64,000 nucleotides of DNA from Notolepis coatsorum (lineage: Eukaryota; Chordata; Actinopteri; Aulopiformes; Paralepididae), in the NCBI GenBank assembly GCA_963971535.1, contig OZ020593.1, positions 34,630,576 through 34,694,575 on the forward strand. Direction: 5' to 3'. Shown here one piece after another: positions 7,587-41,901 of the stretch (position 1 is the stretch's first letter; the number at the start of each line of letters is the position of its first letter). The position numbers and the translations under genes are program-made. The notes under the pieces were generated by a model. It made no database searches. It saw only the letters and a list, made by a program, of their open reading frames with translations, and had not been told where the DNA came from.

Positions 7587-7916
7587 TCTGTTCCAATATC
7601 TCTGCTGTTGTATTCTTTCCCATTTAGCTGTTTTTGCCTCTTTTACAACAGAGGCAAATGCTATTATTCTCCCCCTTAATACTACCTTCGCATCATACCA
7701 TAGACTCATAGGAGATATATCAACGGTATAATTTTTTTTATATATTATTGCTTTACTTCTGGTCATTTAAAATATTTAATTTAAATAATTGTATTCAAAT
7801 AAGCTAATTATTTATTTATATTCATATTATAATTATAGATAAAGGTGGATCATGATAGGGAAATACTGTGGATCTCACATTCAAAAGCTCGATATGTTTT
7901 TTTTATTTGTATCTCC
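7587..7916. other. unassigned AT-rich stretch
   Basis: AT-rich DNA between the TTAA element and the truncated DIRS copy. Nothing recognised. Confidence 0.4.
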
Positions 7917-8716
7917 ACTCGTCAGGGTGAGGACCGCCCCGCGACATCACACCTGCACCCACATTCACCCTGCCGGGGATGTGGAGAGCCCTCAGGCTGC
8001 GCAGATGGAGAAACGCCCATAGCCAGAGCTCGACCGCCGCCCGGTGCAGACGGGGGGAGCGTACTCCTCCCTGTCTGTCGATATACGACGCTGACGTCGT
8101 GTTGACCGTCTTGATCAAAACATTCTTGCCCACCACAAGGTAGGGATGGGAATCGGCCTAATTGGCCGATGCCTGGAACCGTGTGGCTCCTGTGACTTTC
8201 GATTCCCTTATCGCTGCCTACAGTTGCGCAATAACGTTACGTTAGCATGTAGCCATGGCAGACTCTATTTGATTCCTTAAGGGCTCGAAATTGCCTGGGT
8301 TTTGGTAATATGCTCCCGAAATGCTCCCGCTGTTTGGCTACTTCTATGTGCAGTGAAAACTACTTGAATGCTTTAGAACAGTCATTGATTTAGTTTAGGG
8401 TGAGCTAAAATTAGCCGCGGAGCTATCGCTAGCTAACGTGAGCTAACGCTATTTAATCAAGCTCACAAAGAGAGATAAACAGCTGACAGCGGATAGTACA
8501 GGTACAAATACAATAAAACAGCGGGTGGGGACTGTTGTGTAAACCTTGTACTCTTTAGTTCACATATAATAAGAGCCGGATTGTTTGTTTACTAAGTCTC
8601 TACTAGTCTACTCTGAGTCCGTCAGACAGGAAGTACCATGGTGCAACATACAAATGTGTCCGTGTAGCAACACAAGCCAATACTTTAAAGGACAGGGGCC
8701 CGGGGAGGGAGCTCTC

Positions 8717-8771
8717 TCTCTCTGTGTGTGTGTGTGTGTGTGTGTGCGTGTGTGTGTGTGTGTGTGTGTGC

Positions 8772-8804
<33 letters not shown>
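8717..8804. repeat. (TG)n microsatellite, imperfect
   Basis: TG repeats broken by a few CG steps, ending in GAGA. Frames through it are artefacts. Confidence 0.9.
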
Positions 8805-8812
<8 letters not shown>

Positions 8813-9034
8813 TGTGAGTGAGAGACAGAAGTCAGAGGAATAACAACCTGTTATTCAATAGATTAAATTCGTTTAAGAATAAAAAAATAAATACATTTTA
8901 AGAGAATCTCAAATACATTATTTTATTTAAGTGTAGGCTATAGTTAATGTTTTATTTTTTACAGTTTTTGTATTTTTCTGACATGGGGGCTCAACAATAA
9001 ATGACAATCAGAAATGTCAAGTTGCATGTTGTTA

Positions 9035-9440
9035 TTCTAACCAGCTTAGACCCCGACGCTCTGCATCTTCTGGCCGCCTCAGACCTACTCCTATCCGAGC
9101 TCCGGGAGGGTCATCAAAGAGAAGTCGCCTATTCTCAGTCCTTGCCCCACAATGGTGGAATGAACTACCCACCCCAGTTAGGACAGCCGAATCACGTCCA
9201 ATCTTTCGCCGTCGACTAAAGACGCACTTCTTCAACCATTATCTGAATAAAAAAATATATATCTAACCCTAACTAACCGTACTGTCATGCACTTGTCCTA
9301 ATAAACTAACCTACACTGTAGCACTCAACACTTTGATGAACATTGTTGCTCAGCTGATAGAGTTGTGCCCTTCCTGATGGCTTGTCGTACAGAACTTGTA
9401 AGTCGCTTTGGATAAAAGCGTCAGCTAAATGACTAAATGT
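9035..9440 (+). mobile_element. L2-like LINE 3' end
   Basis: The first 190 bp translate into the C-terminal end of a LINE ORF2, visible as PQWWNELP followed by RRRLKTHFFNHYL. The 3' end, about 9398-9440, is taagtcgctttggataaaag plus gcgtcagctaaatgactaaa, the typical tail of L2-like fish LINEs. It is 5'-truncated and sits inside the hAT MITE at 8141-9579. Confidence 0.75.
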
Positions 9441-11390
9441 AGTTCTGTTGCATTTCCAATTTATTTATTTAAATTATAAATTGATCAGGTATCGATAAGG
9501 GAATCGATAAAGAATCGAATCGATAAGCAGAATCGATAATGGAATCGTATCGATAAAATCCTATCAATTCCCATCCCTACCACAAGGTGGCCGAGCCGTT
9601 TGAGGACCAGAAGGACTGCCTTCAATTCCAACACATTGAATGTAGTGCAGACCAGGCAGCATGGTCTTGCCAGCTGCCCCCTACTGCGTTGGCCCGACAC
9701 GCCCCCCCCATCCCGTGAGGGAGGCGTTGGTGAAGACCGTGACGTGTGACAGCCTGCTGCCCATGGGGACCCCGCTGGTGAGGGCCCCAGGCCCTCCCCA
9801 GAGGGCGAGGTCCCCCAGTACTGACATGGGAACCTTCAGCCGCTTCCACTTGTCTCTCACCGGGTCCATTTCCATACTGGAAAACCACCTCTGTATCCTC
9901 CTCATGAAGAGGCCAAGAGGGACCACAGAGTGAGCAGATGCCATCATACCGAGCAGGCGCATCACGGACAGCGCCGTAACCGTCCTAGGACGGAACCTCC
10001 CGAGCGTGCCGAGAACACCCACTCGCCGCCGCTCTGAGAGGGATGCCCATATAGACCTTGAGCTTAAAATAAGCCCAAGTACTCCACCCGTTGACTGGGA
10101 AGAGGAGTACTCTACTTCCAGTCTACAGCCAAACCCAGGCTGGTGAGGAATTCCACCACCTGACTGGTATTAGACCTGGCGATCTACCCTGACCGGCCAA
10201 GGACTAGGGATGGGTACCGAATTCGGTACTTTTGAGGCACCGAACCGAAACACGTCGGTACTACCGAGTATCGAATCAAGTGAAAAAAAAAAAAAAAAAA
10301 AAATTATTATGTCAACGTTCACACGCACAATATATGCTTACCTAGGATTTGACTTGATTCAACAACAAAGCAGTCGGAGCAATGACAAGCCGAAAACTGT
10401 CGAAATTGTAGTTATTTGAAGTTTGGATTTTTTTTTTACGACTGAGGTAGGTAAATTAAATTTCTTGAGAATAAAGTACCGAAAAAAGGTACCGTTGGGT
10501 ACCTGTAACTGAGGGGTTACAAAACCCTGACTGTATTAAAGATTGTGATAGGTTAAACCACTGCTAGTTATGTACTTTAATTACTGGCCAGACAGTACAT
10601 CAAATATAGATGGTGAACACTCACAAGAACACGGCATTGACAAAGAAATAGTATTTGAGGGTATTTTATTATTATGCAACATTAGGTTACAGAATGAGAA
10701 TTAGGGTCGCGCTTGTATGGCGAAGAATATGCGTAAAGTCAGTCAGCAGCATGAGTCACTAGGAATAGCACGAATCCTACGATGGGTCTAAGTTGATGCC
10801 ACCGGTCGTATAATAGCAACTATATAAGGCAACGCTGGTACCGCCTGGAGACAATGGGTTCCCTCCGGGATGTAAGGCCTGGAGGGTAGAGGAATGTTCG
10901 GATACTCAGTCTGATTCAATGAAGAATAAAGAGACTCCACGTACAGGAGTCGGTCCTTGTAAATCCAACGATCAGCAGCAAAGCAATAATTGTAATCCAA
11001 ATGCTCGATAGCACTGATGACAGCCAGCCAGCCTCTGTCCACGAGGCCAGCCCGAGTGGTAATCCTCACGAGGTTGAATCCCAAACGATAGTGGAAATCA
11101 ACGAGGCTCTTCTCCGGGTAACACGTTCCAAATCAATATAATCCAACCAGTAATGGTTCTGCAATCGCCGACGCTGGTTCTCCTGTGCACATGTCCAATC
11201 AGGGCTGTACGCTAAGCTTTTTCACTAGGGGCACACTTGCAAAAAATATGTTTTAGGGGCACATTTTTAAATAACAATTTTACCATTATAGTGCAAAAAA
11301 ATATGTTCCTCCTGCCTCATTACTGTGGTCCTTTTATTTAACATTTAAGTGCTTTTGTTGTCAGGTTTGTATCTTTTATAATGAACCAAC

Positions 11391-11690
11391 TAGGGCTGGG
11401 CGATATGGCCTAAATATGATATCACGATATTTTCTGACCTTTCGGCGATACACGATACACATCCCAATGTTTTTCTTTTTTACCCCAAACAATTCATTAT
11501 GAGGCTTACCAAGACAGTATGAGTTTGCAAGCTAACATTAAAGACAAAATAAAATACCCATGCATTTAGCATTTTTATATTATATATTAGATTTAGATTA
11601 TTGGATTATTAGATTATATATTGCATATATTTAGCAATGAGATATTATATGATTTAGATATGAAATATGATGAATTGAAAATGGGGGACC
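11391..11690. mobile_element. hAT MITE left end fragment
   Basis: Starts tagggctgggcgatatgg, a common fish MITE terminus, and has the expected cgatac-type subterminal repeats. A matching right end was not found. Confidence 0.55.
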
Positions 11691-11820
11691 CTGATGTAAA
11701 CAAGACAAAAGTCTTTCTCTGGTCTGCATCCCCTTAACAATTGTATGTATTGAGCTGTACTGTACCCATTCTGCAATATGTTAATAAAGTTTTAAATCAA
11801 TCAATCAATCAATCAATCAA
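11668..11820 (+). repeat. LINE 3' end with tail module, (TCAA)n
   Basis: Begins gatgaattgaaaatggggga and ends in TCAATCAATC repeats; homologous to the 3' UTR of the LINE at 56127-57252. Confidence 0.75.
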
Positions 11821-11867
11821 TAGCATTTTTATGAAACTACTGTATATTTGTATGTCTCTAAATGTTT

Positions 11868-11993
11868 TGATGAATTGAAAATGGAGGACCCTTATGTAAA
11901 AAAGCCGAAAGTCTTTCTCTGGTCTTCATCCTCCTGTACTGTATTGTACCCATTATGCAATCTGTTAATAAAGTTCTCATTCATTCATTCTGA
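11868..11993 (+). repeat. LINE 3' end with tail module, second copy
   Basis: A diverged copy of the preceding one, ending with CATTCATTC. Confidence 0.7.
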
Positions 11994-12254
11994 CGGAAAA
12001 CAGAATAATTTTGATTGACAGTAGAGTCTGCCAATTACGTCACAACGCTTGCACCCGCCCTGCTGTTCTTAGCACCAATCGGCAAGCGCATTCGTTTTTG
12101 ACTTCCTGAATGCCCTGTGTGTTGACAACAACAAAGCTACTAACATTAGCTCCCCGCGGCCCACGAGTAGGATACCAGTGCTCTGCAGGATGACTAAATG
12201 AGGCATAATGATTTTACCTCAACGAATGTTATAATAAAAGCCTTTCCATACATC

Positions 12255-12617
12255 TGTCTGATTGAAAACTTTATTAACAGACCGCGGAATGGGCATATCT
12301 CAGCACGGGCTGAGATATGAACGAGTAACGTGTGGACCAGATTGACGCGACACAAGGTTTACACAACAGCCCCCACCCCTTGTTTTATTGTATTTGTACC
12401 TGTACTACCTGCTGTCAGCTGTTTATCTCTCTCTGTGAGCTTGATTAGCTCACGTTAGCTAGCGTTAGCTCCGCGGCTAACCCTGAACTAAATCAATGAC
12501 TAGGTTCTAAAGCATTTCGAGTAGTTTTCACTGCACATAGAAGCAGCCAAACAGCGGGAGAATTTCGGGAGCATATGGCCAAAACCCAGTTAGGAACCAT
12601 CGATTCCCATCCCTACT
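12255..12617. mobile_element. hAT MITE fragment, inverted relative of 8141-8560
   Basis: Reverse complement of the left portion of the MITE at 8141-9579, ending cgattcccatcccta. The other end is missing. Confidence 0.7.
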
Positions 12618-13441
12618 ACTAACTTTACTTTTCTTCATAGCTAAGTCAGCCAGTCTATCAGAGTGAGTGCTCAGTTGATTTTCCCCGCTGATCATACCTG
12701 AGTGCTCAGCGTCATCACACGCCTTGGATCATTTAGGAGTGAAATGCGAATGCAAGACTTGAAATCCCTACTCGCAAGCCCGCCCCCAAATATTATTTAC
12801 CAATCGCAACGGCCAATTAAAGGGGCAATTTGCGATGAGATCATCGCAGCGTACAGCCCTGCCAATGCTACACACGAACGAACTGTGGTTGCACGATATA
12901 CAATAAATGAACGACTATTTACTTCACATTAGATTAGGTCGAACTTGACGTTACTGCATTAAACTCTGACACTTTACTATTCCCTTCGCACGTGGTTCTC
13001 CACGCTCTGTTAGACGCACTGCTGCTCACTTCACTGTTACCGAACTTGTCACACTGCTGCTTTAGACGAACTTGTCACACTGCTTGCTTAGACGAACTTC
13101 TGCTGTGCGCACCTGCGCCAGCATATATACTTAAGTGGCTTTCTAGTTCCAAACCTAACCACTTGCCCGGAATCAATACACTGCCAAGGGCATGTCCTGA
13201 CTTGCCCCAAACTCGCCCCTTGCACCTGTCTGAGTGCGAGACTGCCTGGCGCCGCCGTCAGGGGGCATTATCCTTAGGGAAAGTGAATATTACTATGATT
13301 TACATGCAGGTAAAGGGATATTCCGTGTATATATAAATAATATACAATGTATATAAAACAATAAAGGTAGATTCTCAGTTTTAATCTGGCCCTTCACAAC
13401 AGTACCGGTATCGATTCACAGGTACCGGTACCGGTATCGGT

Positions 13442-14089
13442 TCAAATGTGAAAGGTACCCATCCCTACCAAGGACCAGAACGTCGTCCAGGGCAGAATAC
13501 ACTTCATAACCCCCGACGACGCAGAGGCCCCAGTGCGGTCTACACGCACTTGGTGAAGATGCGGGGAGCCAGAGAATAGCCGAAAGGCAGCCTCTGGTAC
13601 ACATATGCTAAACCCTGCAAAGGAAGCGTAGGTAAGCCCTAGGATGGAAGATCGGGATGCGAATACGCATCCTACAGGTCTATGGAGGAGAACAGCGTTC
13701 AACAGGTGGGAGACGGTCAAAATGCTGAACCTTCCATGGGACAGGTCCAGTATGGGTCTGACCCCCCCCCCCTTCTCGGGCACCAGAGAAGACCGGGAGG
13801 AAACGCCACGCATCGCGTCCTCCTTTGGGACCACGGCGATGGCTTGCTTCGCCCACAGAGATTGGATCTCATCGGCCAGAGCTGTCACTGCTGGTGACCC
13901 TGACAATAGGGTCTGTACCAAACCTGAAAACGGGTGGGGTTGTGTAAACACAAGTCCCCGCCTCAGCGTTCTCTCCATCCACCTCGACATATGGCACTGC
14001 TGTAGCCATATGTGATGATAATCCCAAGCGCACCCGCCGCCACTTGGTGCTGGTCCGCCAGAAACCGTAGATAGGCGGCCCGGTCCCAC
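13442..14089 (-). pseudogene. DIRS copy A reverse-transcriptase region
   Basis: This open part of copy A contains GGGVRPILDLSHGRF, the start of a DIRS-type reverse transcriptase, and continues into the fingers/palm region. Copy B has the equivalent at 30442-30720. It is a fossil piece bounded on the right by further DIRS sequence and interrupted by the MITE boundary at 13467. Confidence 0.7.
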
Positions 14090-14346
14090 CCGCTGTGCGT
14101 TGCCAACCCTGAACTCGCCAACCGCGCGAGCAGGGCGTCTCGTGGAGCTGGGATACCCACCCCGACACTACCAACGAGGCAATCGCACCCAAGGGGGAAC
14201 CCCGACAGAAAGGGCCGGTTTGATACAGGGGAAGCTGACATCACACTGGGTGACAAAAGCTCCCCCACTGAACACCTCGCCAGCATGGATTGCTGAGGAA
14301 CTGTTCTACAGCTGGACATGCAAGGTGTGATAGGGTGGGTTCCTAC

Positions 14347-15503
14347 TAGGGGTGCACGATATTGATTTTTTGACCCCGATACCGATAACTTTCTGCTCCT
14401 CAAGGCCGATACCGATACCGATAACCGATATTTATTGTATTATTAAAAAAAAATTACCAAAATGTTTTAATTTTTTTTTCAACATGAAACAAAACATATC
14501 ACAATACAATAATAATACGTCAAATGTATATACTCTCTTTTCTGGACTCTTTTCGTATCACAAACAGTACTGTATTTGCAAATCTGGTATGTCATGTATA
14601 GATGTAGGCAGTACTGTCTATATGTATGTCATTATGTTATGATGAATTGAAAATGGGGGACCCTGATGTAAACAAGACGAAAGTCTTTCTCTGGTCTGGA
14701 TCCCCTTAACAATTGTATGTATTGAGCTGTACTGTATTGTACCCATTCTGCAATCTGTTAAATAAAGTTTTCATTCATTCATTAATTTGCTGTTATAACA
14801 CAAACAGCTCACCATGAACCTTGACATTATGTTAATTAGCATCCAAGCTAGCGTGATAACGTTATTAGTTAGAAACGGCTAGGCTGCCTGCTTACCTGCA
14901 ATAATGTTGTCATCGTCCTGGACAGATAGACTTGTTAAATCATAATATCCACACTTTGTGCTGGTCCTCAGTAAATGTCCCGCCGGCAGCTGGTTTTGGA
15001 TTAGCTTAGCCTTTAGCTGCTCGGCGTCGTCGGATTTTAATACACCATCGTAGCGGTGGTGATGTTTCAGGTGACTTATTATGTTGGATGTGTTATAGCT
15101 TGTTGCCCCTTTCCCTCCTCGTGGAACTTCTGCATTGCATTTATTACAAATAGCAAGCGATCTTTTTCATGTGAAACTATTCCTAGTACCGACGCCATCT
15201 TTGTTGTTTACGTCCGCGCTGCTCCAAGAAACGTACGTGGCTACGTCACAGCCAAGAAAGGGAGCGCTGGATTTGTGTAAAACGCCCTGTTCCTAAACCA
15301 CATGCTATCAGTCGTACCACAGTACTGGCAAAACGGGAGGAGCCCTACAGTCAAAACAAACGCACTTAATCCCAATTCACCCACACGGCATTTTTTTTTT
15401 CAAAAAATATATTATATTATCGGAGCTATTAATAACGTTATCGGGTTTATCGGGATGACGTCATAATTGCTGATATCGGCCCGATAATTATCGTGCATCC
15501 CTA
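14347..15503. mobile_element. hAT MITE with 8-bp TSD gttcctac
   Basis: The ends are taggggtgcacgat and, inverted, tagggatgcacgat. gttcctac occurs at 14339-14346 and 15504-15511. The right subterminal part has ccgataatt and gttatcgg repeats. A LINE 3' end is inserted at about 14520-14786. Confidence 0.85.
14520..14786 (+). mobile_element. LINE 3' UTR with tail module
   Basis: The upstream part matches 46357-46518 inverted; the last 150 bp are the module gatgaattgaaaatggggga through ttcattcattcatt. It is a 5'-truncated copy of the LINE family also seen at 56127. Confidence 0.75.
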
Positions 15504-16697
15504 GTTCCTACACACCGTAGCCCTGCAGTGATATTACTACCACCCAAATCACGCGCGCCTGCCAGACCACTGCCGGTCTTCCGGGAGTGGGAGGCACTAA
15601 CGTGATACCCGGCCTGGCGAAGGCGAGGTCGGGGGAACCCGCGCTGTTTGCCTCAAGAGGTCTCGAGCCCCCCTGCTGACAACCTTTGTAGTTGACAGAC
15701 GTAACACCAGGCTCACCAAACACAGAAGCAGAACGTGTGGCGTGGGAGCCGCTTGACAGCACAACATTCTCACGGACAGACCCAGTTTCAGCCATCAACT
15801 GGGTGTCAGCCCCTGTCCCCATGAGAAGCGAAACGTGGGGCTTGCGCTTCATTGAAGGCACGCGACCCGCAACCAAAGGAAACAAATCAGAGCCCTTATC
15901 CCGCTGATGTTGGGGGGGGGGGGTGACCGGAGAGCGAGCTGGAGACAGCTAGACGGCGAAGTTTTTTTAGGACGTGCTCATCTAAAGTAGCCGATCCCTC
16001 GGTCGCCAAGGCTGTCGGCCTTGCGGTCACCTGTTTTCGTTGTGCCCAGGGTACCTCAGGCAGGGGAAACATGGCCGCTGGTTGAGGGCCTCGCCACAGC
16101 CGTTGACGAGGCCGTGCTCTCACCTCTGGCTGCATGGTGCAAGGCGGTGTGGGGCCTAGGTCAAATACCGCCCGCGCTCCTGCAGAAAGACCAAAGTCCC
16201 TCTGCGGAGAGGGGAGCCCTGAGGAGGGAAAAAACTTCTCACCCCCTCAAGGGCAGACTGATTCAACCAAGATGTCTGTAAACAAGCGTTGACAGCATCC
16301 TAGCCCTCCCTGCGGTTATAGCTTGCGGCTAGGTCAAAGCTAATAACGTCAAAACCTCGCGCAATGTTTCGACCTAGGCTGGCCTTCAAGGCCCCGCCAC
16401 CCGACACCATTTTTGACAGAAAAAACAGCAATTCGAACAATGTTACTAGTCGCTGCTAATTCTATACCGTGGCGGTATAGGCTTAACAGCCCACCAGCCA
16501 CCTGCCGGGCCGACTCACCTCATGGCGTCGGCCGGGCGGGACACCGTTCCAACATGCCAGAGGCAAAGGACTGATGCCACCTGCTTCACAAGCACGGAGC
16601 ACCAGTGGTGGTTGCAACAAAAAACTACTACTAGTGAAGCACTGCCTCACTAGTAGGAATGCAGCAACCTCCACTGTGGTGTGCACCCATGAAGGGG

Positions 16698-16788
16698 TAA
16701 ATGAATAAATGAACGAAAACTCCACCAACACACTGCAGAATGGGCTAGCCCATACACACAATGTTAAGGGGATGCAGACCAGAGAAAC
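16698..16788 (-). repeat. LINE-tail-like block inside DIRS copy A
   Basis: The minus strand reads tctggtctgcatccccttaa and ends gttcatttattcattta. Copy B has its own version at 28958-29042 in the same position, so the block belongs to the DIRS family and not to a separate insertion here. Confidence 0.65.
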
Positions 16789-17404
16789 ACCAGTCCCGCA
16801 CACAATTCATAGATTCACAAAAAGCACACCAGCCCTAGGCCTCAGCCCATCCACCCATGAAATGGTAAACAAGCCCCCGTCAAAACTCCCAACAGTAGAC
16901 ACCGATTGACCGTCAGCATGAATGGTTAAGAGGAGGGAAGACCTTTTAAAAAGACAGCCCTCGGCGGGGAACAAAGGAACAGTGACCCAGCATCGTAGCA
17001 TTAGCATTAGCCGCGCGCTCCAGGATAGCTGGGAAAACATCCAACTCGGAGTCATGACGACAACGTTTACCCAGATATCCTACCCCTTGCGCCAATACAC
17101 AACTCGGTTGTCTCACGGGACAACGAGCAGTATCACAAATGCCAGCATTGATGCCTGGTGGCGCAGGCCCTACCTGTGCGCGACCTAGCCTGACAGCTAG
17201 CCGCCGTGCGACGTCCCTCGATCCGCTGTCAGAAGACGAGGAAACCCCAAGACAGGCCCGATGCGCTGTTAGAATGTGCCGAGAAGATTCCAGGGGCTGG
17301 AAAATCTCCAGCGAAAAGCCAACATTGTTCAATGTCCTTCTGCATTTCATATCTACTAGTTCATGGAGTGCACTGCAGCGTCCATGATGGAAACAACAAA
17401 GAGG

Positions 17405-26060: not shown

Positions 26061-26185
26061 GTTTGAATTAAGTACATTTGCTGAAATAGTTGTTCTTAAT
26101 TATCTCACTTGCTATGTGATAATGTTAGTTATTATGTTATCAATGCCCCTTGCATTGTATGAGAATTGTGTGGAAGAGTTTGCTA
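25806..26185. mobile_element. hAT-derived sequence with GA repeats, left of the DIRS insertion
   Basis: (GA)n tracts at about 25880-25904 and 26029-26055. The last 60 bp (ttgcattgtatgagaattgt onward) match the unit of the array at 40327-41403 and continue on the far side of the DIRS element at 33171. Confidence 0.6.
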
Positions 26186-26188
26186 GTT

Positions 26189-26366
26189 ATATATCGTATT
26201 TGCTTTCGCGTCCCGCTCTGAGCCTTATGAGATACCCCTTATCTCCTATGATACCTATTGTATCTCCAACGAAAACAACTACATGCACCCCACCTGTATG
26301 GGGCCCCGCCCCTATGGTGGCACCGCCCATATAACCGTGACTCTGGTCACCAAAACACCCTTCCTC
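26189..26366 (+). repeat. left inverted terminal repeat of DIRS copy B
   Basis: Inverted match to 32967-33125 over about 158 bp, including cgtcccgctctgagcc and ggggccccgcccc. The outermost 20 bp differ between the two ends, as in other DIRS elements. Confidence 0.85.
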
Positions 26367-26775
26367 TATTTTCGTCCCAGCGTAATGGCTGCGTGCACCA
26401 TACGTTAACTAGCAGGATGAAGAAGATCAGAGTCATAATGTTGAAAGCTTACCGGAGGTTGCTGGCCCCTGGCATCTTCGACGCATGTTTTCGGCGACAC
26501 GACGGGCCTATGTTGATGTTCCTCGTCTGATGACAGCACATCGAGGTTCAGCTGTACAAGACTGGCTGTCGGGCCAGCTTGTACTCAGGTAGGCCCTGTG
26601 TCTTCAGGCATGGGTATTAGTGTTAGTAATGCTGGTTTGTTTTGTTACACAACCATGTTGTGTGTTGGCGCCGGGGGCAGGATGGTTTGGTGAATGTTCA
26701 CTTCAGGGAACGGTTTCCAAGCTGTCTTGGGCATGCTACTAAACATCTAATGCTATGCTACATGCTATCGCTAAT

Positions 26776-28204
26776 TGTAACTGAGGGGTACAATTCCCTG
26801 ACTGTATTGTTAGATATGATACTTACTACCACTACCTCTTGTACTTTAGACTCTGGCCACCCAGTACTAGGCATAAATAATTATGGTAAACACTCCCACA
26901 TAGATGAAACGATCCAACACAAATGTACCAAGTCGAAAGTCTGCGTTTAATAATAATTAATACATAGCAAAAGGTATGTAGAGCAATCACTTAATTACAT
27001 TTATGATTTGAAATAGGATGCACTTTTATGGCAAATGAGTATTCGTTGGTATATCAATAGAGAACGTCCAATCTCTGGTGGCGCAGGCGGTAAATATACA
27101 ACCTGGAATATTTAAGGAATAATAGCAATGATACTTTAATGATTATAGAACTGGATACACTAGGGGGGAATTCCGGTCGCTTGTAAGACAACTGGAGAAG
27201 GGGGGGGGGGGGTAGAGTCTGGCTGTATCCGTCTGGCCGAGGGTATCCTGGGAGAACCCACGGTTGTGCGGCTCGGTGCCTCAGCGATCCTCGATCCACA
27301 GATGAAAGCAGTTGGACTCTCTGTGGGCCGGCTTCCTCCGGTCCACGATGGAGAGACGTGAAGCGACCTCGTCGTGTAGAGCGTCTCCTCACCTGTCGTC
27401 CTCTCCGGGGGGGGGGGTTTCCAACACACGGCAGTGTTGGTCTTTATCCATAGAATAATCACTGTATACAAAGCATAATCCGTGCCTGGGAAGGCGGGCT
27501 GTCGTCGGTAGAATAATCCGGTATGCAGGTCCACTCGCTCGTCGGCTCTGGGGCTCCTCGGGTGCAGCCTCACATGGGGTCGGCCACCCTGGATAAGCAG
27601 CCAGTTCTACCCGAAACGATGGGGGTACTGACTACGATAGTATTCTCACCGCACGAAGCACTACATATGAATAGACTATTATTAGCTTAATAGACTACGT
27701 CCAACTCGACGATATAGTGCCAAATATGACTATTCAAATATTAATATACACGATGTCTCAATACCGATGGTAGGCCGAACTTGGCCTTACTCCCACACGT
27801 GGCGTCGCGGGGAGGCTTTACGTCTGTCACTCTATTGGAGGGTAAGAAACTGGACTAAAAAGAAGTCCTACTTTAGTAGCGCAGTATATATACGCACTAT
27901 GAACAAATAGTACCATTAGTGGTGCGGTAGCCAGATTCCTACGCGGAACTAGGACTTGTTCGTACATGTTGAGCGGTACGTTTGAACTGGGTCTGGGGGG
28001 TATGGCAGCCTGGCACCAAGGTCTCGACCAATAGTAGAATGGAGACTATTATGGGATGTTCAGTAGGCTAGAATGGATATTCAATGCATATTGTACAAGG
28101 AATATACAAGGGATATCAGGGAATATTAGAGAATATACAAATACAATTAAATATATATATATAAATAAATATATATATTCGGTTTAATCTGGCCCTTCAC
28201 AACA
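26776..28204. mobile_element. solo LTR (LTR retrotransposon fossil) with TSD ctaat
   Basis: 1429 bp from tgtaactgaggggtacaa to ctggcccttcacaaca, flanked by ctaat at 26771-26775 and 28205-28209. It belongs to the same family as 10504-13401 and is inserted in DIRS copy B. Internal sequences are gone. It is younger than the DIRS copy that it interrupts. Confidence 0.8.
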
Positions 28205-28957
28205 CTAATGCCACATGCTATTACTACTGCTAACTGCTACGCTGTTCTAATGTCTCCGCCGTGAGATGTTGTCACTTCTCCCTCCTCTTGCCCGGTTCAT
28301 CAATGAAGGTCAGTCGGTAGCTGTTGTGGGTTTTGTTTGCTGAGTCCTATTTACCTTTTTTCGGGTAAATGGGTTGACAACAGGGTAGGCCGTGGCTAGG
28401 TTGCCTAGCCAGGTATGTTACCTTGTGTTCCGGCGGAGTCTGTTGAACGGTGTCCCCATCTGGGGCGATGCGTGAGCTCGGCGGTGTAGCAGTAGAGCTA
28501 TATTACTGCAGGATGGGACTTGACGGCGGGTTATGGCTCAGCTGGCTAGTTCCTATCCACATTGGCGTCGGGTAGTGGGGCTATGGGTCCAGCCGACATG
28601 GTAAACATGTTGCGTGTCTGTGCGCAGGCAATTGTTGATCTGGGTCCCACATCGCCTCACGCTAGGCTGCAGTAGTATAAGGGCAGGGCCGCCTGGGAGA
28701 AATGTGAGGCCCTGTGCGTATTTAGACGCGAGGCCCACCACCCCCTGTGTAGTGGGCTATTGTTTCGTTCTGTCACTCTGCTATGAGAAGGTCTGTCTTG
28801 CTACAGTTTTCTCTCCTCTCAACCATTCATACTGACGGTCAATCGGTATACTGGGGGAGTAGTGCGGGGGGGGGCTTTGTTTACCTTTTTTGGTAAATGG
28901 GCTAAACTAGGGCTGGTGTGCTGTTGTGAATATTTTGAATGAAGGCGGGACTAGTTC

Positions 28958-29042
28958 GCTCTGGTCCGCCTCCCCTTAACTTTGTGTGTATGGGTTTGCT
29001 CATTCTACAGTTTTTTGTGGTTTAGTTCTTTTATTCATTTAA
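28958..29042 (+). repeat. LINE-tail-like block inside DIRS copy B
   Basis: Reads gctctggtccgcctcccctt, then tgtgtgtatggg, and ends tcttttattcattta. The equivalent block in copy A is 16698-16788. Confidence 0.6.
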
Positions 29043-30441
29043 CCCTTTCATGGTGCACACCACAGTGGAGGTTGCTGTTTGCAACCACCACTGGTGCTCC
29101 GTGTTAACATCAGTCCTTTGTTTTTGACATATTGAAACAGTGCCCCGCCCGGCCGACGCCATGGGTGGGTCGGCCTGGCGAGTGGCTGGTGGGCTGTTAA
29201 AGCTTGTACCGCCATGGTATGGAATTGGCAACGATTAGAACTGTGTTCGAATTGCTGTTTTTTTCTATTAAAAAAAGAAAAATGGTGTCTGGTGGCGGGG
29301 CCTTGAGGGCCAGCCGACGTCGACACATCGCGCGAGGTTGTTGACGTTATTAGCTTTGACCCAGCCGCAAGCTATAACCGCTCAGGGTTCCCCTCTCCGC
29401 AGGGGATTTTGGTCTTCTGCAGGAGCGCGGGCGGTATTGTCCTAGGCCCTACATCGCCTCACACCGCGCAGCCAGAAGAGGAGAGAGCACGGCCTCGTCA
29501 GCGGCGATGACGAGGCCCTCGACAGGCGGCCATGTTTTCCCCCGCCGGAGGTATCCTGGGCGTTGATTCGACAGGTGTCCACAAGGCCGACAGCCTTGGC
29601 GGCCGAGGGATCGGCCATGTTGGATGGGTTCGGCTTGAACAAACAAGCCGTCACCGTCCTGCCGCGAGCAGCCCGCTCTTCGATCACTCCCTTCCCCAAC
29701 ACCAGCGGAAAAAGTGGGCTCTGATTGTGCCTTCGTTGATGCGCGGGCGGCCCCCCTTTCGCTTCTCATGGGGACAGGGGCTGACACCCAGTTGATGGCT
29801 GAGCCTGGGTCTGTCCGTGAGAATGTTGTGCTGTCAAGCGGCTCCCACACCTTGAACTGTGTTGGTTGAGCCTGGTGTTACGTCTGTCAACTTAAGTGTT
29901 GTCAGCAGGGGGGCTCGAAACCTTTTGAGGCACACAGTGCGGGCTTCCCCGGCCTCGCCTTCGCCAGGCCAGGTATCATGTTGGTGCCTCCCACTCCTGA
30001 AATATTGGCAAGTGGTCGCAGATCACATGATTTGGGGTAGTAGTAATATCACTGCAGGGCTACGGTGTGTAGGAACCCATGGGGGCCTTACACCTTGCAT
30101 GTCCGGCTGCAGAACAACTCCTCAGCATGTTCTGGAGGGATGTTCAGTGGGGGGGCTTTTTTCATCGGAAGCCCCCCGTATCAGACCGGCCCTTTCTGTC
30201 GGGGTTCCCCCTTGGGTGCGATTGCCTCGTGGGTGGTGTCAGGGTCAGATGTTCCGACACGGAACGCGCTGCTCGCACGGTTCCAGGGTTGGCTACGCAC
30301 AGCGGGTGGACCGGGCCAACTATCTACAGTTCCTGGCGGACCTGCGCCACGTGACGGCGGGTGCGTTGGGAGTGTTGTCACATATGACTACGGCAGTACC
30401 ATATGTCGAGGTGGATGGAGAGAATGCTGAGGCGGTGACTT

Positions 30442-30720
30442 GTGTTTACACAACCCCACCCGTTTTCATTTTTGGTACAGACCCTATTGTCAGGGTCTCC
30501 AGCAGTGACAGCTCTGGTCAACGAGATCCAATCTCTGTGGACGAAGCAAGCCATCGTCGTGGTGTTCTCCTCCCGGTGTTCTCTGCCTGAGAAGTCGGGA
30601 GGGAGGGGTGTAAGACCCAGGCTGGACCTGTCCCATGGGAAGGTTCAGCATTTTTTGGATCATCTCCTACCTGTTGAACACTGTCAGGTGAGGGTCTGGT
30701 TCTCCTCCATAGACCTGTAG
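30442..30720 (+). pseudogene. DIRS copy B reverse-transcriptase region, part
   Basis: Carries VRPRLDLSHG, the same motif as in copy A (VRPILDLSHG), in a context typical of DIRS reverse transcriptase. RNase-H-like sequence follows up to about 31400. A fossil; no repair is proposed. Confidence 0.6.
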
Positions 30721-31799
30721 GATGCGTATGCGCATCTCCGATCTTCCATCCTAGGGCTTACCTACGCTTCCTTTGCAGGGTTAGCGTATGAGTACCAGAG
30801 GCTGCCGTTCGGTTTTCTCTGGCTCCCCGCATCTTCACCAAGTGCGTGGAGGCCGCACTGGGGCCTCTGCGTCGTCAGGGGTTACGGAGTGTTCTGCCCT
30901 GATGACGTTCTGGTCCTTCGCGGTCAAGGTGGATCGTCAGGTCTCGTACCAGGCAGGTCTCTACCAGCCTGGGGTTGCTGTAGACTGGATGTAGAGTACT
31001 CCTCTTCCCAGTCAACGGTTGGAGGGCTATGGGCATCCATCTCAGAGCGTGTTGTCAACACGCTCGGGAGGTTCCGTCCTAGGACGGTTACGGCGCTGTC
31101 TCACGTCGCGTTTTCACCGACGCCTCCCTCGCTGGTGACGGGTCGGGCCAACGCAGTAGGGGGCAGCTGGCAAACCATGCTGCCCGGTCTGCGCTATGTT
31201 CAATGTGTTGGTGTTGAAAGCGGTCCTTCTGGTCCACAAATGGTGTTGATCAGGACGGACGATACGACGTCAGTGTCGTGTATCGACAGACAGGGAGGAG
31301 TACGCTTCCCCTGTCTGCACCAGGCGGCGGGCGGCTGGCTATGGGCGTCCTCCATCTGCGCGGCCTGAGGGCTCCCCACGTCCCCGGCATGGAGAATGTG
31401 GGTGTAGGTGTACTGTCGCGGGGCGGTCCTCATCCTGACGGGTGAGGATTACGTCTGGACATGGCCAGGCGGGTCTGGGACCGATGCCGTGCCGCCAGGG
31501 ATTCTTCCCCATACATCTGTTAGGTCAGTTGTTGGGACGGGTACGTTGAGGGGCGCAGGTTCTTGATCCTGATGGTGTTACCATCTGGAATGCGCATGCT
31601 CCCTCCACTGTCGCGCTTACGCGGGCAGATGACGTATGTTCCAAGTGTGGTGTAAGGCGGGGGGCCGGGACTCAGTCTCCTGCCCCCTGGATGCTGTCCT
31701 TAGTTACCTCCAGTCTCTCCTTGATAGACTGTCGGTTTCGACGGTGAGGGTATATGCAGCAGCTATATCCTCCTATCATGTGGGGTTTGAGGGGATGTC

Positions 31800-32495
31800 T
31801 TGTTCAGCCACCCTCTTGTGAAGTGTTTCCTGCTTGGCGCTCGACGCGTTAAGCCGGTGCAACGCTCCTTGGCTCCGACTTGGGATCTTCAATTGGTCCT
31901 CGGTCGGTTGTCCTTGGCCCCGTTTGAGCCGCTCGAGCAGGCGCCGTTGGGACAGCTGTCCTTCAAGACCGCGTTCCTACTGGCTGTCACTTCCGCTAAA
32001 CGCGTAGGTGAGCTCTGTGCTCTCTCGGTACGTCCAGAGTGCCTGTCTTTTCGGACCGATTGCGGTGCCACTCTGCGACTTAATCCTGCTTTCGTGCCTA
32101 AGAATATCCGGAGTTCCTTCCGCTCCCGGGATATTGTGGTTCAGGCGTTTCGTCCTCCTCCTCACACTAGTGAGTTAGATGCGGGCCTTCACCTGTCATG
32201 TCCAGTCCGTGCTTGGGGATTTACCTCAGCCGTACTCAGGACTTCAGGGTTACCGACCAGCTTTTTGTCTGTTACGGTGGGGCTCGTGCTGGTAAGGCAC
32301 TGTCGGGGCAGCGCCTGTCCCATTGGTTGTGCGAGGGCATTACCCTCTGCTACACGTTGGCTGGGCAGGATCCCTCTGGGGGCGTCAGGGCGCACTCCAC
32401 TCGTGGCGTGGCTGCTTCTGCCGCTCTCCTGGGTGGGGCCTCGGTGGAGGACATCTGTGCTGCAGCTTCATGGTCCTCCCCGGGTCCCTTTGTAA
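31800..32495 (+). pseudogene. DIRS copy B tyrosine recombinase region
   Basis: The region encodes the first catalytic arginine context TSAKRVGELCAL and, further on (about 32395-32500), the second block with AHSTRGVAAS (the H-x-x-R pair) and a W/Y-containing end (ASWSSPGPFVRFYL). These are the active-site landmarks of tyrosine recombinases. The enzyme would join the circular DNA intermediate to a short matching target sequence. It lies just before the internal complementary region. It appears broken. Confidence 0.7.
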
Positions 32496-32813
32496 GGTTT
32501 TACCTCATGGACATGACCGGGGGTTCTGTCTCCCAGGCGGTTCTGGGGTCTGTGGCCTTTCCTGCTTCCCGTCCTTTGGTCGGGTAGCAGGAGTGTATGG
32601 GTATGGGCCACAGTGTGTTGAGTCACACGTGGTTCCGCCTGTACGGTGTGTTCAAGGGGTTCTAGTTCCCTCTTGTTCGCATTCAGGTGGAGTTGACTGC
32701 GCCCCCCCTTCATTAGGAAGGATGGGGTGACAGGGCTCCCCGCACCCCTTGATGTGGGCTTACGGGTCCTCAGGGGGTACATTTGTCGGGTCTCGCGTCC
32801 GCTCTTCCCCATA

Positions 32814-32915
32814 TCTCATAAGGCTCAGAGCGGGACGCGAAAGCAAATACGATATATAACGATAGGTTATGTAGATAACCTAGTTATATTAGTATTGGCT
32901 GAGCGTCCCGCTCTG
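32814..32915 (+). repeat. internal complementary region of DIRS copy B
   Basis: 32814-32857 is the exact reverse complement of the left edge 26189-26232, and 32861-32915 the exact reverse complement of the right edge 33113-33167. They are joined by AAC (32858-32860), the complement of the GTT found at both element ends. Confidence 0.9.
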
Positions 32916-32966
32916 CGCGGCCCTGAGTTCCCTCTTGAGGGATCTTTTCCTGGGACGGGATTTGGC

Positions 32967-33170
32967 GAGGAAGGGTGTTTTGGTGACCAGAGTCACGGTT
33001 ATATGGGCGGTGCCACCATAGGGGCGGGGCCCCAGACAGGTGGGGTGCATGTAGTTGTTTTCGTTGGAGATACAATAGGTATCATAGGAGATAAGGGGTA
33101 TCTCATAAGGCTCAGAGCGGGACGCTCAGCCAATACTAATATAACTAGGTTATCTACATAACCTATCGTT
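32967..33170 (+). repeat. right inverted terminal repeat of DIRS copy B
   Basis: Inverted partner of 26209-26366, plus about 42 bp of right-specific edge (taatataactaggttatct) and the terminal GTT. Confidence 0.85.
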
Positions 33171-33724
33171 CTAGTGCTACCCCTTTGTACATTGTGGCTG
33201 TGTCTGACAAAAGTTAACAATAAATAATGTTATTAGTAGGGGTGTAACGATGCATCGATTAATCAAAATGCATCAATTCTAATGTGTTCGATTCGATGCA
33301 TCGATTTGAATATGTTAGAATCGATTATACATTTTTATAAAAAAAATGTAATGTATTTTTTGTGTGTATTGTTTTTATTGACCTATAGTCCATTCATGCT
33401 GAGTGAATCAGTTCCCCCAGCCACATTTGTGTATACATTTTTTTTGGGGGAATTAACTGATAGAAAATTTATCGAAAATTAATCGAATCGAGGTCAAATT
33501 AAGAGTTTTCATGATGCATTGAATCGTTGCCTGAAGAGTCGTAATCGAATCGAATCGTTGTGAGGTCGAATCGTTACACCCCTAGTTATTAGGAATACAT
33601 TTGCCTGCTGCGTGAACTGTGCATAGCTGAATAGACTGTATGTTAACGTCAGTCATATGGTGGTACTTGGAGAGCCAGCTACGTTCTCAGGTGGTACTTG
33701 GTGTAAAAAGGTTGAGAACCACTG
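33171..33724. mobile_element. hAT right end region, split by a MITE
   Basis: Continues the hAT sequence interrupted at 26185 (ctagtgctacccctttgtac) and ends aaaggttgagaaccactg, the inverted form of cagtggttctcaacctt. The MITE at 33237-33584 lies in it. The flank (ccctagag) belongs to the LINE at 33725. Confidence 0.65.
33237..33584. mobile_element. hAT MITE, 348 bp, TSD gttattag
   Basis: The ends are taggggtgtaacgatgc and, inverted, taggggtgtaacgattc. gttattag lies at 33229-33236 and 33585-33592. Subterminal tcgattcga-type repeats are present. No coding. Confidence 0.9.
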
Positions 33725-40033: not shown

Positions 40034-41403
40034 CAGTGGTTCTCAACCTTTTTACACCAAGTACCACCTGAGAATGTAGCTGGCTCTCCAAGTACCACCA
40101 TATGACCGACGTTAAAATACAGTCTATTCAGCTATGCACAGTTCACGCAGGAGGCAAATGTATTCATAATAACATTATTTATTGTTAAGACACAGCCACA
40201 ATGTACAAAGGGGTAGCACTAGAACTAGCAAACCCTTCCACACAATTCTCATACAATGCAGCGTCTCTACAAATAGTAGCTCCAGTTCTGCAGACCCCTG
40301 GCTCTCCAAGTACCACCATATGACCGTGAGAATTGTGTGGAAGGGTTTGCTAGTTCTAGTGCTACCCCTTTGTACATTGTGGCTGTGTCTTAACAATAAA
40401 TAATGTTATTATGAATACATTTGCCTCCTGCGTGAACTGTGCATAGCTGAATAGACTGTATTTTAACGTCGGTCATATGGTGGTACTTGGAGAGCCAGGG
40501 GTCTGCAGAACTGGAGCTACTATTTGTAGAGACGCTGCATTGTATGAGAATTGTGTGGAAGGGTTTCCTAGTTCTAGTGCTACCCCTTTGTACATTGTGG
40601 CTGTGTCTTAACAATAAATAATGTTATTATGAATACATTTGCCTCCTGCGTGAACTGTGCATAGCTGAATAGACTGTATTTTAACGTCGGTCATATGGTG
40701 GTACTTGGAGAGCCAGGGGTCTGCAGAACTGGAGCTACTATTTGTAGAGACGCTGCATTGTATGAGAATTGTGTGGAAGGGTTTGCTAGTTCTAGTGCTA
40801 CCCCTTTGTACATTGTGGCTGTCTTAACAATAAATAATGTTATTATGAATACATTTGCCTCCTGCGTGAACTGTGCATAGCTGAATAGACTGTATTTTAA
40901 CGTCGGTCATATGGTGGTACTTGGAGAGCCAGGGGTCTGCAGAACTGGAGCTACTATTTGTAGAGACGCTGCATTGTATGAGAATTGTGTGGAAGGGTTT
41001 GCTAGTTCTAGTGCTACCCCTTTGTACATTGTGGCTGTGTCTTAACAATAAATAATGTTATTATGAATACATTTGCCTCCTGCGTGAACTGTGCATAGCT
41101 GAATAGACTGTATTTTAACGTCGGCCATATGGTGGTACTTGGAGAGCCAGGGGTCTGCAGAACTGGAGCTACTATTTGTAGAGACGCTGCATTGTATGAG
41201 AATTGTGTGGAAGGGTTTGCTAGTTCTAGTGCTACCCCTTTGTACATTGTGGCTGTGTCTTAACAATAAATAATGTTATTATGAATACATTTGCCTCCTG
41301 CGTGAACTGTGCATAGCTGAATAGACTGTATTTTAACGTCGGTCATATGGTGGTACTTGGAGAGCCAGGGGTCTGCAGAACTGGAGCTACTATTTGTAGA
41401 GAC
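40034..41403. repeat. hAT end followed by a head-to-head junction and a 218-bp tandem array
   Basis: The terminus cagtggttctcaaccttt at 40034 is followed by one unit in reverse orientation up to 40326, then by forward units with starts about 218 bp apart (taacaataaa at 40391, 40609, 40825, 41043, 41261). Units are nearly identical. Each has a 5' part with ggggtctgcagaactggagc and a 3' part homologous to the hAT right end. Frames of 60-77 codons recur on both strands with the repeat and are not genes. Confidence 0.8.
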
Positions 41404-41901
41404 GCGCCTCTGATCAGGATTAGCCTGTTAGCTTGCTAACGTTGTAGTGATTGTAATGGTACATAAACGTTAATTTCGGGCGATGTGCGCATAAAGGAAT
41501 GGCGACGGTGCAAAACATGTAGATGCATTTGACCCGTTGCTAGAAAAAAAAAACACCACAGACTTATTTCGGGACGTGTAGGCGCACTGCTGTGTTAACG
41601 CAGCAGTGCGCACCAACCGACCAACGCGCTGCTCTGCTTGCAGAAGCACGGATATGACTCGTCGAGTTGTCACAAGAGTTTTTTCAAAATAAGAGTATTA
41701 TGCACCTGAACGTTGCTAGCTTTCGGAGCCTAGCTGGAGCTGCGCGTGGGCAGAAATGAGACCCGCTACAGGATTTTCAAAATAAGAGTATCTATATGAA
41801 CCGAATCCCTATCGCACCAGTGCTACTGAAGTAAATCCATCCATCGCACAGACCGCTGTTGCTGTAGCACGTGCGATATATATGTCGCACTGTACAGCCC
41901 T
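41404..41901. mobile_element. possible TIR-transposon remnant ending gtacagccctg
   Basis: The right edge gtacagccctg (41891-41901) matches the ends at 12861 and 63985. The left end was not found. It abuts the gypsy pol region. Otherwise unassigned, with a twice-occurring ttttcaaaataagagtat. Confidence 0.35.

Follow-up and report, generated by a model that had tools for sequence, protein, structure and literature searches.

The window analysed here, a 64,000-nucleotide stretch of the Notolepis coatsorum genome (contig OZ020593.1, positions 34,630,576 to 34,694,575), contains a whole DIRS1-like retrotransposon, its internal complementary region (ICR) and uninserted copies of the host repeat that it interrupts. 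The element has GTT at both of its edges (26186-26188 and 33168-33170), while the empty target has only one GTT. The question raised by this locus is where the two edge triplets come from, and whether the insertion duplicated three bases of the target. The first-pass annotation of this DNA had proposed that one GTT of a circular intermediate was exchanged for one GTT of the target, leaving what only looks like a 3-bp duplication. Comparison with other copies of the family in the same genome gives a partly different answer: the left triplet is that of the circle and the right triplet is that of the target, no duplication occurs, and the two triplets need not be identical. The target origin of the right triplet was shown directly in one copy, and more loosely in a second. 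We read the element as a DIRS1-like tyrosine-recombinase retrotransposon with one-sided, strand-biased integration, and assign to this reading a probability of roughly 0.6.

Edge triplets and empty target sites

The target in the window held GTT by chance, so that a one-sided origin of the triplets is invisible at this copy. As to the lack of a target-site duplication, a trait of DIRS1-like elements, the window copy alone is uninformative, and the trait was recognized in a copy with a GAT target.

Edge triplets were read at sampled loci of the genome (3.42 Gb searched). Among 81 right edges unique by flank, 68 were GTT, eight GAT, two GCT, and one each GGT, ACT and ATT; 12 of the 13 non-GTT triplets have a changed middle base. 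The 66 left edges that were not chosen by their right edge were GTT in 65 cases and ATT in one. A change of the middle base was therefore present in 0/66 left edges vs 12/81 right edges (Fisher p = 0.0006), and a change of any base in 1/66 vs 13/81 (Fisher p = 0.003). Identity of the edge triplets, which is a trait of the published mechanism, holds in the window copy but not in every copy of the family. The partner left edge could be read for 11 of the 13 odd right edges and was GTT in all 11, with an extra AT after the GTT in L123; seven of these partners were sought on account of the odd right edge, and they provide no independent test.

The right-edge sample was reduced from 118 loci to 87 with readable tails and to 82 unique by flank, duplicated flanks being counted once; L025 (broken tail) and L040 (variant tail) were then dropped and the window copy was added. 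The 31 loci without a readable tail include tails entering another element end or an ICR (L027, L028, L038). For the left edges, 100 of 223 places were listed, comprising 55 ICRs and 45 outer edges (41 unique flanks); the ICRs were told by the octamer before the triplet, and two unusual ones were confirmed by L157 and L158. Addition of L072 and L076 (from 10 stretches), of the window, and of 22 edges from 40 further stretches (18 without an edge) gave the total of 66. The left edges of L119, L120, L122, L123, L124, L140 and L141, looked up for their odd right edge, and that of L121 were all GTT and were kept outside this count.

The origin of an odd triplet can be read in an element (L120/L108, at C4:229934593) inserted in a tandem array of 33-bp units. 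The array ends with CAGGAGA, where the element starts with GTTATATATCG; the element ends with CCTATC, and then follows GAT-AACAGG, the edges being CAGGAGA/GTT and GAT/AACAGG. The junctions between empty units of the array are GAT in all six cases read. Because the empty units have GAT and the element is bordered by a left GTT and a right GAT, the left triplet comes from the element and the right GAT is the target's own. A duplication would have given GAT twice; the arrangement GTT...GAT therefore implies that there is no target-site duplication. An insertion 1.5 Mb away with the same flanks (L121/L109), probably a duplicate of the former, shows GAT in seven of eight junctions and GAG in one. 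The looser second case is L122/L118, where the neighbouring unit reads AGTA-GAT-AGTAGTATAG. In the controls, which are arrays with a GTT target, both edges are GTT, and so are the units read (6/6 in the window, 1/1 for L054, 3/3 for L144/L197).

The 3-bp duplication is thus only apparent, as had been supposed. What does not hold is the swap of one circle GTT for one target GTT as a rule, considering the 13 non-GTT right edges and the single non-GTT left edge, nor the exchange of identical triplets, considering that in the 33-bp array the target GAT survives only on the right. Tabulating the edge triplets across copies, as the first-pass annotation had suggested, revealed edge triplets unlike the ICR centre on the right side, an observation that it had named as one that would refute its inference.

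Alternative explanations

The edges expected from the inheritance of one strand would also be produced by a symmetric double-strand crossover with a mismatched overlap, if the bottom strand were always corrected to the top one; nicks left in one strand could steer mismatch repair in this way. Such repair would have to take the same direction at both edges in nearly every copy, and we consider it unlikely.

It is also conceivable that no overlap is exchanged, and that the circle is joined 5' of a preferred GNT target, GTT...CCTATC being simply the element. A left GTT and a right GNT would then be explained without any handling of mismatches, and the flanks do show a further preference. However, a fixed preference fails to explain why the two edges share their first base in 26/28 published elements (see below) despite its variation between hosts, and known tyrosine recombinases cut with a stagger. 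We give this explanation, too, a low probability.

The standard model, as stated in PMC3266345, is an unbiased double-strand recombination between the 3-bp junction of the circle and an identical genomic triplet, which would make the odd right edges later mutations. Most copies do have equal triplets (68/81 right edges are GTT), and the ATT edge and the AAT centres of some ICRs resemble CpG decay. Nevertheless, the odd triplets are one-sided, 12 of the 13 involve the middle base, and one (ACT) is a double change, and 12 of the 13 copies show no change in the 20 element bases next to the odd triplet (L083 has one extra base). In addition, the match between the GAT right edge and the empty array units contradicts the model unless the assembly is in error. 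As an account of the Notolepis copies, it appears rather improbable.

Cut-and-fill integration with a true 3-bp target-site duplication would suit the window copy, in which both edges are GTT and the target has GTT once, yet it is refuted for the array copy, where a GAT target yielded GTT...GAT and not GAT...GAT, and it must face the fact that 94 of the 100 listed ICR centres also contain GTT, in the form of AAC; we regard it as almost certainly wrong.

Comparison with published DIRS elements

Table 3 of PMC3266345 reports unequal edges for 10 of 28 elements, so that edge identity does not define the family. Eight of the ten have a 3-base junction, and in seven of these eight it is the left edge that carries the junction triplet. 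The exception, AcasDIRS1, has it on the right, and is one of the two elements with only a left extension, i.e. with a mirror anatomy; the remaining two unequal elements have a 2-base junction and cannot be scored. The published edges therefore lean the same way as the Notolepis copies (7/8). In the same table, the edges differ at positions 1, 2 and 3 in two, seven and two cases, respectively, thus agreeing in 26/28 elements at position 1 and in 26/28 at position 3, and position 1 is A, T, G or C depending on the host. A fixed target preference would explain this pattern less well than a pairing between circle and target at the two outer positions. Section 10 of PMC3266345 describes the triplet as complementary to the junction in 'almost all' elements, and the side on which the exceptions occur is not discussed in that section.

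Among the elements of PMC3266345, GaDIRS1 and GaDIRS2 from stickleback and TnDIRS1a from pufferfish share with the window copy the GTT start, the AAC junction, the right extension, and long inverted repeats that diverge over a short outer stretch; their ICR halves measure 36-46 and 56-57 bp, and TnDIRS1a itself has GTT...GAT. The window copy is longer (6985 bp, compared with 5322, 5782 and 5931 bp for GaDIRS1, GaDIRS2 and TnDIRS1a), and its frames are broken. In its anatomy, it is closest to the stickleback elements, which also begin and end with GTT and have an AAC junction (PMC3266345).

A possible mechanism of integration

In the mechanism that we propose, the termini would be rebuilt in each cycle by copying the ICR, yielding a circle in which the junction triplet is present once. 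The edges and the ICR agree in sequence and covary, and the copying itself is taken from the published model. The recombinase would insert the circle directly 5' of a target triplet, usually equal to that of the circle at positions 1 and 3 and free to differ at position 2, and the surviving product has the circle triplet on the left and, as seen directly in one copy and more loosely in a second, the target triplet on the right. A double-strand crossover with a 3-bp overlap would produce mismatched pairs at each edge, and replication would then yield the two arrangements in equal numbers; the one-sided edges thus suggest that the product inherits a single strand of the crossover. If ligation depends on a paired neighbour, circle and target would be expected to pair at the outer positions.

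The usual polarity of tyrosine recombinases would make the inherited strand the coding-sense strand, the one expected to be elongated at its 3' end across the junction with the ICR as template. Inheritance of the sense strand would be the opposite of the outcome expected if a bare first-strand cDNA circle were inserted, and would fit a circle in which the sense strand runs across the junction without a break, having been extended on the ICR template. The strand bias may arise in this way. In its general form, which we put forward tentatively and at somewhat less than even odds, the proposal is that one junction strand is inherited, and that every insertion leaves two readable 3-base marks, a fingerprint of the circle at the end lacking the extension and a footprint of the target at the extended end, pairing being needed at the two outer positions only.

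A parallel is found in the bacterial SE/Tn554 elements, for which PMC10214605 describes a tyrosine recombinase that puts the circle spacer at one end and the target spacer at the other, as in the DIRS copies studied here; the two are called 'fingerprint' and 'footprint' there, and their placement is taken as evidence of strand-biased recombination. This one-sided placement of circle and target spacers was found in the Notolepis copies. However, the SE/Tn554 elements are DNA elements with a 6-bp spacer and the circle spacer on the right (PMC10214605), compared with three bases and the left side here, and no homology is claimed. Further traits of SE/Tn554 elements are the cooperation of more than one tyrosine recombinase and the lack of reverse transcription. 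The Notolepis element was not filed as an SE, its inverted terminal repeats and ICR being those of a DIRS1-like element. As a working analogy only, integron gene cassettes are inserted through one strand by a tyrosine recombinase at a GTT core; their site is a folded single strand, and the system is bacterial.

Observations weighing against one-sided integration

Several observations weigh against the one-sided reading, or against an exact copying of the ICR into the element ends. The target origin of an odd right triplet was seen in one clean empty-site case and one looser case; no empty site could be located for the remaining odd right edges. The triplet counts refer to sampled loci, and the polarity in Table 3 of PMC3266345 is weak when taken alone (7/8, p = 0.07). 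Two odd right edges could not be paired: no left edge is present in the 501 bp fetched for L024, and the edge found for L128 (L139), although GTT, has a diverged type and could come from a different copy. The left edge of L175 is ATT followed by a second change, and since a copy in the same repeat (L184) reads GTT, we regard it as decayed. The right edge of L053 is ATT, and the neighbouring units are GTT in 2/2, which makes this triplet probably a product of decay, perhaps of the CpG type. Moreover, the DIRS intermediate is described in a passage of PMC5941688 as a double-stranded circle. Finally, a Pfam search with eight open reading frame pieces of the window copy gave nothing above the cut-offs, so that the identity of its enzymes is based on motifs read by eye.

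Further points come from the ICRs. The ICR junction pattern (29 fixed bases, at most three mismatches) occurs 619 + 649 = 1268 times in the genome, and its reversed control 0 + 0 times. Among 100 listed of these 1268 places, all without mismatch outside the centre, the centre is AAC in 94, AAT in four and AGC in two, and thus departs from AAC in six. A canonical right edge was readable for three of the six (L034, L097, L113), and was GTT in all three; there was no readable canonical right edge for L025, L037 and L080. We read AAT, a CpG-type change, and the other non-AAC centres as decay of the ICR. The left edge has four spellings, which match the copy's own ICR in five of six pairs and in the window; the sixth pair differs by a CpG-type change.

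The right tail was examined at 98 of the 100 listed ICR places, with 72 loci showing a canonical tail (at most two errors) and 26 lacking it. In at least ten of the 98 copies, the tail departs from the copy's own ICR, so that the edge is an inexact copy of it (L035, L040, L041, L047, L084, L087, L101, L110 = L111, L115 and L125; L040 is included although it is one of the 72 canonical loci). The changes are deletions or short rearrangements around a short inverted repeat, GGTTAT-CTAC-ATAACC, which sits in the right extension of the window element, and the departing tails still end with CGTT, or with CGAT in L110. Two further variant tails, L050 and L058, came from the left-edge listing and bring the total to twelve. 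The ICR was read for 11 of the twelve (that of L125 was unread) and is canonical through the tail region in all 11, with one base change further in for L152 and L154, the ICRs of L087 and L110. It is possible that the reverse transcriptase skips when it copies the right end from the ICR. Most of the other loci among the 26 are truncated, enter N or a further element end, or have no right repeat.

Two copies are less easily accommodated. L048 (ICR L157) has a shortened ICR with centre AGC, and yet a canonical right tail, a right edge GGT and a left edge GTT. In L062 (ICR L158), the right tail and the ICR are both shortened, but differently, contrary to a simple picture of ICR copying. In both ICRs, the shortening affects the right half.

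The element in the window and its host repeat

The features of the element and of its target are collected in Table 1. The element is ordinary and its anatomy is already known. The DIRS1-like traits found in it are the inverted terminal repeats, which differ at 1/159 positions, the ICR halves overlapping in a 3-bp circle junction, and the right extension, with an outer part of 45 bp on the right vs 22 bp on the left, matched by the ICR. The left edge is an exact reverse complement of its ICR half over 49 bp including the triplet (46 without it), and the right edge over 58 bp (55 without it). This match bears out the DIRS1-like anatomy and the copy of the circle junction in the ICR that the first-pass annotation had recognized, including the exact 55 bp on the right and the shared AAC; the left match is 46 bp and not 44, and the coordinates needed adjustment by a few bases (ICR at 32812-32915 instead of 32814-32915, array extending to 41405 instead of 41403). 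The motifs in the frame at 30439-30918, which is interrupted by a stop, are presumably those of a reverse transcriptase, and we take TSAKRVGEL, HSTRG and FVRFY to be tyrosine-recombinase-like (R, H-x-x-R and Y motifs). Of the reverse transcriptase, RNase H and methyltransferase domains of DIRS1-like elements, only reverse-transcriptase-like motifs were seen, by eye, and no piece reached a Pfam cut-off.

Table 1. Features of the DIRS1-like element and of its host repeat in the window.
Feature	Position	Strand	Remarks
Left half of interrupted host repeat	26123..26185	+	
DIRS1-like element, whole, 6985 bp	26186..33170	+	Edges set by ICR match and empty target
Left edge triplet GTT, circle-derived in this DIRS1-like family	26186..26188	+	GTT in 65/66 copies
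Left terminus beyond long inverted repeat, 22 bp	26186..26207	+	
Left inverted terminal repeat, 159 bp	26208..26366	+	One difference from right copy
Reverse-transcriptase-like frame remnant, stop-broken	30439..30918	+	Motifs by eye, presumed
Tyrosine-recombinase-like motifs in two frames (frameshifted)	31989..32503	+	By eye, presumed
ICR, left half	32812..32860	+	Reverse complement of 26186-26234
Circle-junction triplet AAC, common to both ICR halves	32858..32860	+	
ICR, right half	32858..32915	+	Reverse complement of 33113-33170
Right inverted terminal repeat, 159 bp	32967..33125	+	
Right terminus beyond inverted repeat, 45 bp, includes right extension	33126..33170	+	
Right edge triplet GTT, target-derived in this DIRS1-like family	33168..33170	+	
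Right half of interrupted host repeat	33171..33240	+	Further repeat piece matches at 33585-33724
Tandem array of uninserted host repeat, five 218-bp units	40327..41405	+	GTT in 5/5 plus-strand sites read

The empty host sequence with a single GTT is readable in the window, as claimed, in the array of 218-bp units. With at most two mismatches, GCTAGTTCTAGTGC has six sites in the window, five of them exact (one on the minus strand at 40216) and one with one mismatch, against 0.41 sites on average in shuffled sequence. The exact 14-mer target site of the host repeat occurs at 979 + 1030 = 2009 places in the genome, and the pattern read backwards at 3 + 0. In 8/8 of the 14-mer loci fetched, both flanks of the element continued with a single GTT between them; as these loci were picked by the exact 14-mer, GTT is present by construction, and only the flanks are independent. 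The host repeat is presumably a hAT element, to judge from its terminal sequence.

Probable movement in trans and wider meaning

One frameshift in the recombinase frame (31989-32503 in the window; L010-L038) is shared by 19 of 27 copies that could be aligned and include the site, the window copy among them; L015 is deleted at the site, and L009, L022 and L027 were left out as not alignable. The copies sharing it stand at different insertion places, except for L016/L017, which have shared flanks, and copies free of the frameshift exist. The same frameshift at different places suggests that copies with a broken recombinase were probably moved in trans by the proteins of other copies, although the shared frameshift may instead be a programmed one.

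Insertion of DIRS elements has been modelled since 1985. It is described, in passages of PMC5941688 and PMC5633606, as not experimentally demonstrated or not fully proven. We found no report of one-sided DIRS edges in the open-licence literature, nor, in open-licence print, a correction of the exchange of identical triplets; the corrected mechanism can be tested widely. One-sided edges make each copy inserted in a mismatched target a record of the strand that was inherited; any genome that is rich in DIRS elements and has an outgroup allows a check, and such edges discriminate between models that matched insertions cannot tell apart. For annotators, they are a caution that the right triplet need not belong to the element.

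Some minor observations may be added. The flanks show a preference beyond the triplet, with no C at -1 in the 41 unique left flanks, A at +1 in 52/82 right flanks and T at +6 in 44/82, where the statistics assumed base frequencies of 0.2 and 0.3. L064 and L067 lie on different contigs and have the same left octamer and the same right flank, pointing either to a repeat hit twice at one base or to a duplication. A second, fragmented DIRS-like copy is present on the minus strand of the window at 7916-16961, its longer pieces being 79-87% like the first copy and short ones up to 100%; the ends of the first copy have no match in it, and it was not used. The distance from the left edge to the ICR (26186-32842) is 6.66 kb in the window copy and about 5.0-5.3 kb in many other copies, some being shorter or longer (worked out by hand for the copies with both places listed), and the window copy seems to carry about 1.4 kb extra. 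The right end of L022 is a left-type outer sequence terminating in AAC, as though copied from the wrong half of the ICR. In L027 and L028 (G000:C1:207871424 and 207871733), two ICRs face each other 309 bp apart, and each reads as the right end of the other.

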